Source: Candidatus Avelusimicrobium vaccinum (GTDB taxonomy: Bacteria; Elusimicrobiota; Elusimicrobia; Elusimicrobiales; Elusimicrobiaceae). From it: DNA of 64,000 bases. The stretch is taken from NCBI GenBank assembly GCA_902794895.1, contig CADBIY010000004.1, forward strand, positions 1-64,000. The letters are read 5' to 3'. The notes beneath the pieces are model-generated. The model was not told the DNA's origin, did no database searches, and saw nothing but the letters and a program-made list of their open reading frames with translations. Position 1 is the first letter of the stretch. Each line of letters starts with the position of its first letter. Positions 42,597-63,817 of the stretch are shown piece after piece. The position numbers were made by a program, and so were the translations under genes.

Positions 42597-42758
42597 AAGA
42601 TTTGCTGTTTTTTGGAAGCCTGTGAAGAATGGGCGTGCTGCGATAGCAGTTCAGAGAAGTCCAAAGACAGTCGTTTTAGATGCGCGATAGAACAAGGAAA
42701 TCATGAGCCTTGTTCGTCGCCATCCAGTGTTTGTCGTTTCCTTGAGGAGCGGCAGACC

Positions 42759-42812
42759 ACGGCTGTCTAAGTTCGGGCACCTTCTCTGGCTCGGCATAAA
42801 CAGCCGTTTTTT
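42759..42812 (+). terminator. Terminator-like hairpin upstream of the glycosyltransferase
   Basis: ACGGCTGT and ACAGCCGT pair across a 33-base loop region, followed directly by six T and ATT. The long loop makes it a weaker candidate. Confidence 0.45.
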
Positions 42813-56687: not shown

Positions 56688-56740
56688 ACCTGTGGCCTTT
56701 CCCATGTCAAGGGAACGCGCTACCGCTGCGCCAACTGGGC
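56666..56740 (-). tRNA. tRNA-Val (anticodon GAC)
   Basis: The acceptor stem GCCCAGT pairs with ACTGGGC. The anticodon stem TTCCC/GGGAA holds the loop TTGACAT with anticodon GAC. The T arm is CACAGG-TTCGATC-CCTGT. The encoded CCA lies at 56668-56666. Sequence from the T arm to the 3' end occurs again about 199 bases downstream. Confidence 0.95.
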
Positions 56741-56760
56741 TTAAATCTATTCAAATTTTG

Positions 56761-59460: not shown

Positions 59461-59697
59461 TTAGCGATAAGATCTTTGTTTATCAATCCAAGTGTCTATA
59501 ATTTGTTTATCGAAAAACAATTTAGACGAATGTTCGAATTTGACGATACTTTCCTTTGGAAATAAACCTCGGCATTTTTTTGAATAAATGGTGGATATCG
59601 GCCAACCTATATACTCCGACAGTTCTTTAACGGTAAATAACCGCTTGGGGCCATCACAAGGTATTGACTCAAACAATTCTGGTGCGCTGTTTAACAT
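59461..59697 (-). CDS. AlpA/excisionase-type helix-turn-helix protein
   Basis: 78 residues. KRLFTVKELSEYIGWPISTIYSKKCRGLFPKESIVKF is the usual MerR-like winged helix of excisionases (helix, turn, helix, then a strand with Phe/Lys), and LFFDKQIIDTWID is the typical end. AAGGAG lies eight bases before the start, inside the Rep gene. It overlaps the Rep stop by seven bases, so the two are coupled. It likely regulates excision or integrase. Confidence 0.8.
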   Translation of the reverse strand: MLNSAPELFESIPCDGPKRLFTVKELSEYIGWPISTIYSKKCRGLFPKESIVKFEHSSKLFFDKQIIDTWIDKQRSYR

Positions 59698-60779
59698 AGG
59701 TTAGGCTCCTTATTGTTGCCCATCTCCAACAAGTACTGTCCTGTAGTATTACGTTGCCAAATGGGGGAAGATTCTTCCCCAATGTTTTGGATAGCCGTTA
59801 AAATAGCCTCTTGGAGTATATCTTTATCTCTTGCTTGGCTATATGTTGAAAATAAATTTTTTATTTTTTTACAATATCTATACGCAGTTTTATGATCAGT
59901 CCAATGTTCCAAATATCTAAACAAACTGTTTATTCCAAATTGTTTACATATCCATAGACATCCTACTAAAGAACTTATAGCCTGCAAACCATGGATATTT
60001 TTCTGTTTACACATAATTTCCGTATTTTCAAGAAGATCATACTCCGAAGAATTTACAACATATATATGTTGTAATGCTTCTTTAGCTCTTGAATATAATA
60101 TTTTGCGAGCTATCTCAGGATTGAATGCATTTTCAAGTGTATTTTCTAATTTAATTCCTTGATAAGCATATTCTCGTTCAATTTCTCTCGCTCCTTGTAT
60201 TTGATATTCTACTTGCAATAGAGTAGTACTTGTCTGTTGCAATTCCTGTACTATTTCTTTAGCGGATGGTTGTTTTAATAGCTCCATCGTTTTATCATAA
60301 ATTTTTAATTTACGATGCTTTAGATTATTAAAGATACAAATTCCCTCTTCAGGATATAAAGAAATCCCTTGTTTGAATTTCCTAGTTTTTTCTGCAGTTC
60401 TAAGCATTCTACTACAGGTATCAATTGTTAACGGAACTTTTACCAATTGATTTACATGAAGTGTAGATAATCGTTTAGTACGTAAAGTTTCTTTAGAAAC
60501 CTCTATCCCATGATTCAAGAGTTGTTGATTAGTTATTGTTAGAAAAGTTTCTAAATCTTCAGCAGAAATATTGCGGGCATTATGATTGTATAGAGCTTTA
60601 GCTGGACAGGTTACAATCTGTAGGCAGGGTCCTTTTAATCTTATTGTTGGAAAGTATTTTCCTAGATAAGCCAAAGACGCAAATGTCTTCCACTCATAGA
60701 AATTGGCTCTTTTGGTTAAATCATTTGTTTGAATCTTAAATTCGCCTGGCTCTAGATACCATCCTAATTTATCTATCAT
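59691..60779 (-). CDS. Replication initiation protein, phage/plasmid gene II/X type
   Basis: 362 residues. It starts MIDKLGWYLEPGEF. The middle has RLSTLHVNQLVKV, a hydrophobic strand with the His that could carry the metal site, then CIFNNLKHRKLKIYDKTMELL (the YDK element common in gene II/X proteins) and TTLLQVEYQIQGAREIERE. These features and the length resemble the filamentous phage and plasmid II/X family, which nicks the origin for rolling-circle replication. AGGTTCCT-ATG gives a ribosome binding site. Identification rests on motif order and context. Confidence 0.55.
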   Translation of the reverse strand: MIDKLGWYLEPGEFKIQTNDLTKRANFYEWKTFASLAYLGKYFPTIRLKGPCLQIVTCPAKALYNHNARNISAEDLETFLTITNQQLLNHGIEVSKETLRTKRLSTLHVNQLVKVPLTIDTCSRMLRTAEKTRKFKQGISLYPEEGICIFNNLKHRKLKIYDKTMELLKQPSAKEIVQELQQTSTTLLQVEYQIQGAREIEREYAYQGIKLENTLENAFNPEIARKILYSRAKEALQHIYVVNSSEYDLLENTEIMCKQKNIHGLQAISSLVGCLWICKQFGINSLFRYLEHWTDHKTAYRYCKKIKNLFSTYSQARDKDILQEAILTAIQNIGEESSPIWQRNTTGQYLLEMGNNKEPNLC

Positions 60780-61462: not shown

Positions 61463-61540
61463 TTTAGTTGCTTATTTATAGTCAAATAAGTAAAAAATTG
61501 ATAAAGTAAGAATATATTGATTTGAAAGGAGTAATACTTT

Positions 61541-61783
61541 AACCCAAGTCTTAAACGTGGCTTGATTACAATTGGTACTGTTTTTGGTGGGGACATAAAC
61601 CTCACTCTTTTACATAAAGTAGAAGTGATTCTGAACCAAAAATAGTCGCTATTGCCAATGAAAACGGACTAATTACCCGTTTGAATTGGCGAGTAATCCT
61701 ATTATTTGATTTATCATCAGTAATGGGTAGGCGGCTGTTTATTTGAGAGTTCAGAATCACTCAAATAACAGCCGTCTTTTTTG
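61541..61783 (+). ncRNA. Highly structured region, candidate RNA or replication origin
   Basis: About 240 bases without a supported gene. GTGGGG pairs with CCTCAC (61587-61605). TTGCCAAT plus AAACGG pair with CCGTTT plus ATTGGCGA (61652-61692). A terminator-like hairpin closes the region (61731-61783). GTGATTCTGAAC (61625-61636) is an exact complement of GTTCAGAATCAC (61749-61760), which forms the loop of that terminator. So an alternative pairing or pseudoknot is possible. It may be a cis-regulatory leader of the operon starting at 61815, a free RNA, or the DNA origin of the element. Confidence 0.45.
61730..61783 (+). terminator. Long terminator hairpin before the TPR-lipoprotein operon
   Basis: GGCTGTT-TATTTGAG and CTCAAATA-ACAGCC pair almost perfectly (one bulge) around a 12-base loop, then CTTTTTTG. 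It lies 32 bases upstream of the 61815 start, so attenuation is possible. Confidence 0.65.
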
Positions 61784-61814: not shown

Positions 61815-62228
61815 ATGGAAGACAAGGACATGGAAAAAAATCCTTTACACCGGGAAAGATTATATGCTACCGCACGAGACTATGAATACCAAGGCAACTA
61901 TCAAGCAGCCATCGAACAGTATAAAGAGATAGTTGCTTTGGGAAGTAAAGAAGGAATCATAGAAATTGCTAAAATCTGCATTATTTATACACGTTTGACA
62001 ACAATGTCTAACACACGTATTTCTATCGATTGGAATAAATTGTTTCTATGGTTAAAAAAAGTAAGCGTTTTATACCCTCAAGAAGTGTTTAAAACAATTT
62101 ATTTGTTGTTAGCTCTTAAATTGCTTAATGGTATGGAAGAAATAGAATATAAAACTTTTTTAGCACAAAGTACTAATCAAATGGCTAAAAAATATTATCA
62201 ATTACTATTGAAAGGAGAACATAAATGA
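61815..62228 (+). CDS. Small TPR-like protein
   Basis: 137 residues. AAAGGAGGAAG precedes the start. RLYATARDYEYQGNYQAAIEQYKEIVALG is one full TPR-like helix pair, and further helices follow without clear repeats. No signal peptide is seen, so it is likely cytosolic. The stop overlaps the first lipoprotein start as ATGA. It may act with the lipoproteins; its function is unknown. Confidence 0.65.
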   Translation: MEDKDMEKNPLHRERLYATARDYEYQGNYQAAIEQYKEIVALGSKEGIIEIAKICIIYTRLTTMSNTRISIDWNKLFLWLKKVSVLYPQEVFKTIYLLLALKLLNGMEEIEYKTFLAQSTNQMAKKYYQLLLKGEHK

Positions 62229-63064
62229 AAAAATTATTATTTAGTGTAACGATAGTTTTAGTTTTACCTTTATTTTTTGGTTGTGCTTCGTTGACACAAA
62301 CTGCAAATTTACAGGAAGTAATAAGGAAACCAAAAAATTATTGTCAATTGAAAACGGCGGAAAAAATGGAAGTAACGTTAAATGATATAACCAAATATGA
62401 TAGCAGCAGTTGCTATACAGAAAGTGGGAATGGGTTGGCTGAAACAGGTATATTATTGGAGGAGGTGGTTGTGGGAAGGAAAAATGAATATTTTGGAAGA
62501 ATTACTGATCCATGGGGAGATCGTGGGGAAGTAATTATTATGCCTTATCCAGTCAAAGGGGTAACAAGGAAGGACCCCAGAAGTTTTGGAACTATTGGAC
62601 ATTCCGTTCGTATCAAACCTATTCCTGAAGATTTGTGTCTAAAGAAGACTAATGGAAGTTCTTTCACAAGTGTTGAAGAATATGCCCCCTATTATGGAAA
62701 AGCGCTGGTCATTGTTCGGGTAATTAAGAAACGACAATTGAGTCTTGCTGAACGTCAAACACTTTTGAGACAAAAACAAAATGAATTTAATCAAAAATAT
62801 ATACAGAAACAGCAGGAGTATAAAACAGAATACGATGAATGCAATGCATACTACGATGAAATTGTTAATTTTTGGGAAAACAATACAAATATTAAACGAT
62901 TTTGTAATAGCGTTGAAAACACTTGGTTTGATAACGAATGTCTAGCTACAAGTGAAGATAATGAAACATGCCAAACTTTAAAGAGTTTATTTATAGACTG
63001 CTATCAACAGGGAGCTATTAGAGCCGATGATGGATATGTGTCTAAAACTTTTTTTAAGAGTTAA
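62225..63064 (+). CDS. Lipoprotein, paralogue 1 (unknown function)
   Basis: 279 residues. Lipobox LFFGC (Cys about 20) after a signal peptide. The mature protein has VIRKPKNYCQLKT, a central beta-rich stretch with VGRITDPWGDRGEVIIMP-type strands, PEDLCLKKTNG, and then a long helical domain rich in Lys, Glu and Gln (about 185-230). It ends with FCNSVENTW...C...C...FIDCYQQG. The six Cys of the mature part are shared in order with the next gene. Not recognised as a known family. Confidence 0.75.
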   Translation: MKKLLFSVTIVLVLPLFFGCASLTQTANLQEVIRKPKNYCQLKTAEKMEVTLNDITKYDSSSCYTESGNGLAETGILLEEVVVGRKNEYFGRITDPWGDRGEVIIMPYPVKGVTRKDPRSFGTIGHSVRIKPIPEDLCLKKTNGSSFTSVEEYAPYYGKALVIVRVIKKRQLSLAERQTLLRQKQNEFNQKYIQKQQEYKTEYDECNAYYDEIVNFWENNTNIKRFCNSVENTWFDNECLATSEDNETCQTLKSLFIDCYQQGAIRADDGYVSKTFFKS

Positions 63065-63103
63065 GCGAAGAGGAAATACAATTAAAACGAGGAGAAGTTA
63101 AGG

Positions 63104-63817
63104 ATGAAACAATTGGTTATTTTATTATTAGTAGTGATTTTATATTTCAATGGCTGTGCGTCTATGGGAGCAAAAGATGTTTCCGCTCAAGACGTTATAT
63201 CTAAGTCTAAAATATTTTGTCAACGAGGGCAAATAGAAGATATGCCCTTGTATGACGAGGCAGAATGTTATCAATTCCGGGAGCAAATTATTGGGATTAA
63301 TATTCTATCTCAAGGCAGGAACGAGATTGTAGGACAACTAGTTGATAAAAATAAATGGATTGCTTCAGGGACAGAGTATTGGATAATAATGCCAAATAAC
63401 AGGGATTTGCCATTACTAAAACGTGGGAATTTTGATTTGCTTTATCATGAATTACCTGTTGATTTGTGCGTAAAACGTCAGGGGAAGGCTTTTTACAAGG
63501 GAACCCGGAGGTTTAGAGGGGGCGACCATCCTGTGATTGAAATAATTGAAAAAAAAGAAATAAATAAACAGGAAATTAAAAGGGATTTGGAGGAAAAATA
63601 CAACACATGCAAGATACAATACAATAGTATTTTAGAAAAATGGCAGACGGCACCAAATGCGAAAATATTTTGTAATAGCATTTTAGCTGAGTGGCAAGTA
63701 AGAGAATGTCAAAAACCTTTTACTGATGAATGTACGAATTTGGCATTTCCATTTATTGAATGCTATAACAATAAATTTATTAAATTGAATCCCCAATATG
63801 TAAATGCTGTATTTTGA
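63104..63817 (+). CDS. Lipoprotein, paralogue 2 (unknown function)
   Basis: 237 residues. Lipobox YFNGC (Cys about 17). It shares with its upstream neighbour VISKSKIFCQRGQ, a strand VGQLVDKN...YWIIMP, PVDLCVKRQG, a coiled-coil-like stretch (EKKEINKQEIKRDLEEKYNTC), and the end FCNSILAEW...C...C...FIECYNNKFI. The pair arose by duplication and has diverged strongly. GAGGAGAAG precedes the ATG. A terminator follows. Confidence 0.75.
   Translation: MKQLVILLLVVILYFNGCASMGAKDVSAQDVISKSKIFCQRGQIEDMPLYDEAECYQFREQIIGINILSQGRNEIVGQLVDKNKWIASGTEYWIIMPNNRDLPLLKRGNFDLLYHELPVDLCVKRQGKAFYKGTRRFRGGDHPVIEIIEKKEINKQEIKRDLEEKYNTCKIQYNSILEKWQTAPNAKIFCNSILAEWQVRECQKPFTDECTNLAFPFIECYNNKFIKLNPQYVNAVF

Follow-up and report, generated by a model that had tools for sequence, protein, structure and literature searches.

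A multi-copy family of putative attenuation leader RNAs with copy-private pairing arms in gut Elusimicrobiota

Near the end of the window, i.e., the whole 64,000-nucleotide stretch of DNA from Candidatus Avelusimicrobium vaccinum analyzed here, a terminator-type hairpin carries in its loop a 12-base sequence whose exact complement lies upstream. What could such a pairing be for? The original prediction, made from the letters of this stretch, was that it allows either an attenuator with an anti-terminator or a pseudoknot, or else that the hairpins form an origin for the replicase encoded nearby on the other strand. The complementarity is as predicted: GTGATTCTGAAC has its exact reverse complement GTTCAGAATCAC inside the terminator loop (Table 1), and the match grows to 13 bp when extended. 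Both 12-mers have a single site each in the 1.45-Mb host genome, and a simple estimate gives an expected count of ~0.002 for a perfect 12-bp inverted match within ~240 nt. The further stable hairpins that had been described are also real, two of them being H2 and H3 of Table 1 and the third spanning 61577-61646. The terminator-type hairpin (61730-61776) has a GC-rich stem of 17 bp followed by T6. The folding energy of the region is -86.7 kcal/mol, compared to -52.4 kcal/mol in shuffled sequences (z = -7.5), and 0 of 200 shuffles equaled it.

Table 1. Positions of the leader parts, the neighboring genes and the second family copy in the window
Feature	Position	Strand	Remark
AAAGGAG, Shine-Dalgarno-like, 5' of the element	61525..61531	+	in 62/107 copies vs 4.4 expected
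P0 hairpin AAGTC/GGCTT	61546..61563	+	kept in many copies, not all
Leader RNA core	61575..61780	+	covariance models R1 203.7 bits, R2 89 bits
P1 left arm ACTGTTTTTGG	61577..61587	+	P1 98.8% of cells paired
P1a hairpin, variable	61588..61604	+	
P1b hairpin CTTTTAC/GTAGAAG, variable, covarying	61607..61625	+	
5' private arm GTGATTCTGAAC	61625..61636	+	first complementary 12-mer
P1 right arm CCAAAAATAGT + invariant CGC	61636..61649	+	partner: P1 left or terminator left arm
H2 hairpin, conserved loop ACTAATTAC with palindrome TAATTA (61670-61675)	61654..61690	+	
H3 hairpin, variable, covarying	61698..61727	+	
Terminator left arm GGCGGCTGTT(T)ATTTGAG	61730..61747	+	
3' private arm GTTCAGAATCAC, in terminator loop	61749..61760	+	second complementary 12-mer
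Terminator right arm CTCAAATAACAGCCGTC + U-tract	61760..61782	+	
First downstream gene, 137 aa, weak TPR similarity	61815..62228	+	start 34 nt past core end
Two lipoprotein-like genes, same operon	62225-63064, 63104-63817 (span 62225..63817)	+	
Second family copy in the window, more divergent	42602..42812	+	R2 106 bits; upstream of glycosyltransferase-like gene (~42902)

A DNA search located a second copy of the region in the host genome (78% identical) together with a third, partial match, and gave DNA-level matches in 45 of 199 relatives. Alignment of 36 copies resolved two subtypes, type A, which is window-like, and type B, which is commoner. Their common plan begins with an optional P0 hairpin, ACAATT, and the P1 helix (CTGTTTTTGG/CCAAAAACAG) around two variable hairpins and the 5' private arm; it continues with an invariant TCG, the H2 hairpin with its conserved loop, the H3 hairpin and the terminator, which loops out the 3' private arm. 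Every aligned copy keeps the terminator (helix 9, 99% of cells paired). One locus, L021 (G055:C1, locus 1501-1590), has an apparent internal deletion by which the 5' part is joined straight to the terminator right arm. Covariance models were built from 21 type A copies (R1) and from 31 mainly type B copies (R2). By these models, the E-values of which are rough, R1 has matches in 75 of 199 relatives, including a few weaker ones in genus g2, and R2 in 80 genomes out of the 149 searched from the order. A single family, through its genera g1 and g3, accounts for all of the R2 matches; among these 149 genomes the sister family had none. The host genome holds ~17 copies, two of which are in the window. 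Almost all genomes of these two gut Elusimicrobiota genera carry the family, at 1 to at least 16 copies per genome, numbers that are lower bounds in many genomes, as at most 12 (R1) or 16 (R2) candidates were scored in each. The named records that carry it are uncultured Elusimicrobium/Elusimicrobiales MAGs.

Searches of phage and plasmid collections gave no match, and searches of viral contigs no real one: the 17-mer AACGGACTAATTACCCG occurs in 12 IMG/VR contigs, none of which matches the model beyond that word. In Rfam 15 the window had no match at the gathering threshold, and one type A and one type B copy had only chance-level sub-threshold matches. No known Rfam family fits, the best sub-threshold candidate being L20_leader (RF00558) at 21 bits against a gathering threshold of 58.7. 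A catalog of candidate leader/terminator RNAs in gut bacteria has been published (Fremin and Bhatt, 2021; PMC8040213), and its main text makes no mention of Elusimicrobia or pilins. Full-text searches of the open-access literature likewise turned up no account of an RNA of this type from Elusimicrobia. Judged by its sequence, the window region is one copy of a previously undescribed, multi-copy family of structured RNAs, a putative leader of ~210 bases.

The helix formed by the two 12-mers and their counterparts in other copies (the private helix) changes in sequence while it keeps its pairing. In an alignment of 23 copies (A1) it is changed on both sides at 9 of 10 pairs with 92% of cells paired; 10 of 10 pairs are changed on both sides in 10 type B copies (A2) and likewise in 31 copies (A7), where most pairs show at least four pair types. 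For the structure as a whole, the observed covariation score and percent paired were reached by no shuffle, and slid structures were only 35-50% paired. Because compensatory changes keep the pairing in relatives, the complementarity of the 12-mers is evidently not chance. Over 93 copies, the longest exact complement between a copy's own arms averages 9.9 bp, compared to 4.3 bp for arms swapped between copies, and a complement of at least 7 bp is seen for 97% of own arms versus 2.6% of swapped arms. The own-arm median is 10 bp over 109 copies, ~5 of which have a weak or broken private helix, and 104 5' private arms comprise 81 distinct sequences. Between different copies within one genome, the arms have a mean complement of 3.0 bp, versus 2.9 bp for composition-matched random arms, and a match of at least 7 bp is reached in only 2 of 310 ordered pairs, which represent one copy pair. 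Each copy thus has a private pair of arms. It had been proposed that a lack of conservation of the two 12-mers in relatives, along with the lack of a transcript, would refute the prediction; conservation of the 12-mers is a misleading criterion, since what persists from copy to copy is the ability to pair and not the sequence.

A cassette found in four species is >97% identical through the element, with almost no change besides the replacement of both arms together, i.e., CAGCTAGACT/AGTCTAGCTG versus CAATCGTAGT/ACTACGATTG. In another pair of copies, 10 differences fall in the 185 sites outside the arms and 14 in the 20 sites inside. Private arms of near-identical copies are either identical or wholly different; a few copies (L129, L172) have mismatched arms and look recombinant. 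The private helix is almost purely Watson-Crick, with 2 G-U among 229 cells in A1, a scarcity of G-U that might arise if one arm is copied from the other at the DNA level. Such copying at the DNA level would also be in keeping with a phase-variable DNA inversion, where the private arms are inverted repeats and the ~112-bp block between them flips, as would the finding of perfect inverted repeats close to genes of the classic phase-variable set, i.e., those for the cell surface and for restriction-modification. Each copy has different repeats, however, so that no one recombinase could recognize them, and the orientation of H2 is always the same. No convincing flipped copy was present in 91 genomes: a search for the inverted-order pattern returned two matches, which fit antisense overlaps of normal copies (one was inspected). 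We regard inversion as very improbable.

In the stems outside the private helix, G-U cells outnumber A-C cells by 171 to 11 in A1 and by 58 to 18 in A2. From this excess it follows that the transcript of the + strand is the folded molecule. The same bias weighs against the proposal that the element is where the G2P/CRI-type Rep, whose gene lies at 59691-60779 on the - strand, starts replication or nicks the DNA. That protein (Phage_CRI, PF05144) is encoded 760 nt away, three other copies also adjoin Int/Rep genes, and filamentous-phage intergenic regions also carry several hairpins. Set against this proximity, the ~17 copies are scattered over the chromosome, most of them by pilin or surface genes without a Rep, the stems tolerate G-U far above A-C, the distance to the downstream start codon is fixed, and the phage, plasmid and viral collections searched gave no real match. 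A filamentous-phage/CRI Rep origin would be rep-linked and carried by the replicating element, which is not the pattern seen here, and we give the origin reading next to no credence.

The proximity of the Rep to the window copy arises only because both sit on one tRNA-integrated island. A perfect direct repeat of 45 bp, matching a tRNA end, marks both borders of this 11.2-kb island (56701-56745, and host contig position 67929-67973), and its genes encode a DUF4143 ATPase, a tyrosine integrase, an RHH protein, an excisionase (Xis)-like protein, the G2P/CRI-type Rep, lipoproteins and a 1235-aa STAND-like NTPase, which is possibly defense cargo. On the island, the genes that follow the window copy are one TPR-like gene and two lipoprotein-like genes; the description of the region as lying ahead of a lipoprotein operon therefore holds for this copy, but not as a general rule, as other copies precede many other genes. 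In other species the leader is found on similar integrase/Rep islands at L038, L053 and L054, with a type III DNA methyltransferase, an N6/N4 DNA methylase and a SNF2/PLD helicase, respectively, as the cargo behind it. The leader thus travels with mobile cargo.

For 107 copies, the downstream start codon (picked by a simple script) is on the same strand at a median of 44 nt past the element, and within 100 nt in 85%; L020, L022 and L023 are without a close downstream gene. Type IV pilin-like proteins make up 43 of 94 non-redundant downstream proteins (~46%), one of which was confirmed as N_methyl PF07963. Among the others examined are type III and type II DNA methyltransferases, an EcoRI-type methylase, a type IIG restriction enzyme, an HsdR N-terminal protein, a SNF2/PLD helicase, glycosyltransferases, polysaccharide pyruvyl transferases and sulfatase-fold enzymes, as well as lipoproteins, which were recognized by eye. 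Pili, surface glycans and DNA methyltransferases are a gene set that is phase-variable in other bacteria. With respect to a metabolite riboswitch, the conserved core (P1, the H2 loop and the terminator arms) could be a binding site, and the downstream genes share no pathway. The position of the genes also bears on whether the RNA is a stand-alone sRNA, a terminated transcript of ~210-270 nt that acts in trans while the downstream genes have their own promoters. Such an sRNA would be in keeping with the strong terminator, with a -10-like TATAAT/TATACT just 5' of many copies, and with the H2 loop, usually a 6-nt palindrome, which fits RNA dimerization. It is distinctly unlikely when 85% of copies lie no more than 100 nt before a co-directional start codon, usually with just a ribosome-binding site between, and when the private arm of the window copy has no trans partner in the genome, its 12-mer being found only at its two places.

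We consider it probable that the element is a cis-acting transcription-attenuation leader of a new family, in which a nested antiterminator competes with P1 and the terminator. An intrinsic terminator stands before the gene, a co-directional gene follows shortly downstream (107 copies), and a conserved antiterminator pairing excludes the terminator, though the part of it between P1 right and terminator left covaries, by itself, little beyond G-U. The P1 right arm with the next bases (AACAGUCG) is complementary to both the P1 left arm and the terminator left arm. The helix of P1 right with terminator left spans 9 bp in type A, where it is 98.5% paired, and 8 bp in type B (97%), where CCAAA/UUUGG (83%) and then the private arms come next; the UCG/CGC that extends the helix is outside P1, yet nearly invariant. 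This helix varies almost only to G-U and alone does no better than shuffles. The support for this putative pairing is conservation, not covariation, and its complementarity could partly be a by-product of the similarity of the P1 and terminator arms. Given these arm complementarities, the 5' private arm with P1 right and the terminator left arm with the 3' private arm would thus form one nested hairpin.

The private arms could also pair with P1 and the terminator both formed, leaving the nested antiterminator unused; the 12-bp helix would then be a kissing or pseudoknot contact that stabilizes the OFF state or a fold that binds a protein or ligand. P1, the terminator and the private arms all covary and are compatible on paper, and the full-length MFE fold forms P1 and the terminator while both private arms stay single-stranded and free to pair. 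We think such a terminator-locking pseudoknot rather unlikely, as a 10-bp helix using ~10 of the 12 loop bases would probably be sterically tight, and as it leaves unexplained both the invariant CG(C) after P1 and the near-complete complementarity of P1 right and terminator left.

As long as the terminator 3' arm has yet to be made, the antiterminator is predicted to be favored in 99% of 104 copies, with a median advantage of 9.9 kcal/mol. At this stage, the partition function for 45 copies gives the private arms a pairing probability of 0.94, compared to 0.19 with swapped arms. In the full-length RNA of these 45 copies the terminator is predicted at 0.81 (0.88 in the window copy); the partition function is preferred here because the energy comparison leaves the loop arm unpaired in fold A, so that its full-length difference understates the terminator fold. 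As the terminator fold is predicted to dominate once the RNA is complete, the element may do no more than terminate, and the private arms may add a pseudoknot to that fold. For an attenuation leader, the sequence of events would be as follows. During transcription, the 5' private arm and P1 right would pair with terminator left and the 3' private arm, making a long nested antiterminator hairpin that encloses H2 and H3 and excludes P1 and the terminator. Once the terminator 3' arm had been transcribed, the fold with P1 and the terminator would be the more stable, and whichever fold won before the polymerase cleared the U-tract would lead to read-through or stop. The private arms would be the toehold that drives and tunes this switch, and their sequence would differ in every copy because only complementarity matters. 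The predicted folds are what a kinetically controlled attenuator with such a toehold should look like; that termination and antitermination do occur, and which state is the default, we infer from sequence. The attenuator or pseudoknot of the original prediction is well supported in that the pairing covaries in >100 copies, the folds are mutually exclusive, the terminator is present and a co-directional gene starts ~44 nt downstream.

What triggers the switch may be a ligand, a protein, translation, or an RNA-RNA contact via the palindromic H2 loop. This loop (61668-61676 here) is usually a 6-nt palindrome (TAATTA, TTATAA, TCATGA, TTGCAA or TTCGAA), with TGATCC as a non-palindromic class, and is a candidate contact site for RNA dimerization or a protein. 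Its sequence varies between copies yet stays palindromic, as expected of a kissing-loop dimer site. Upstream of many copies there is an AAGGAG motif, spaced about equally far from P0. The motif is followed in 11 copies by an AUG directly before a stop codon (UAA or UAG), a start-stop mini-ORF, and ORFs only a few codons long seem to be present in other copies. Given the Shine-Dalgarno-like motif and the start-stop mini-ORFs, translation may be involved in some copies.

The family is new. Attenuation leaders as a kind are known, and hypervariable arms that are private to each copy are an unusual variation on them. We tentatively raise the possibility that one leader scaffold is reused in each genome, with orthogonal hypervariable toehold pairs that switch at least a dozen accessory genes individually, perhaps stochastically, without cross-talk, and with arm pairs replaced together by concerted DNA-level copying. 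The genes switched in this way would, just as tentatively, be those for pilins, DNA methyltransferases and surface glycans. If the attenuation reading is right, this would be a large, unlisted regulatory-RNA family over genes that are phase-variable elsewhere (pili, surface glycans, DNA methyltransferases), and a natural case of many orthogonal copies of one RNA switch per cell, separated only by their private arms. It would also provide a clean evolutionary system, in which the two arms are replaced jointly against a background of 190 nearly unchanged bases, so that the questions of why the arms are private and how they are replaced in concert become directly testable.

Terminator/antiterminator attenuators and transcriptional riboswitch leaders are alike in being 5' leaders where the terminator left arm re-pairs upstream, with mutually exclusive folds and a nearby downstream gene. 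In contrast to these, the Elusimicrobiota leader has no known ligand or aptamer family, its antiterminator is extended by a hypervariable, copy-private arm pair of 10-13 bp, and it occurs in many copies per genome before unrelated accessory genes. The Rfam L20_leader is likewise a leader with long-range pairing, whereas the Elusimicrobiota family is not upstream of ribosomal genes and shares no sequence core with it. Processive antitermination by RfaH/ops and LoaP has a like gene set (pili, surface glycans, accessory operons), whereas the Elusimicrobiota leader carries its own terminator. A specialized NusG paralog as the antiterminator factor was considered and rejected: the host genome has one NusG-domain protein, and a second such protein was found only in G037 among 101 genomes searched. 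A NusG paralog is therefore unlikely to be what decides the outcome. Synthetic toehold switches and strand displacement are alike in that a single-stranded arm with a private complement drives the exchange of folds, and in that orthogonality comes from the arm sequence alone. The Elusimicrobiota leader differs from these in being natural and intramolecular and in acting, as proposed here, on transcription; the likeness is one of principle, not of descent.
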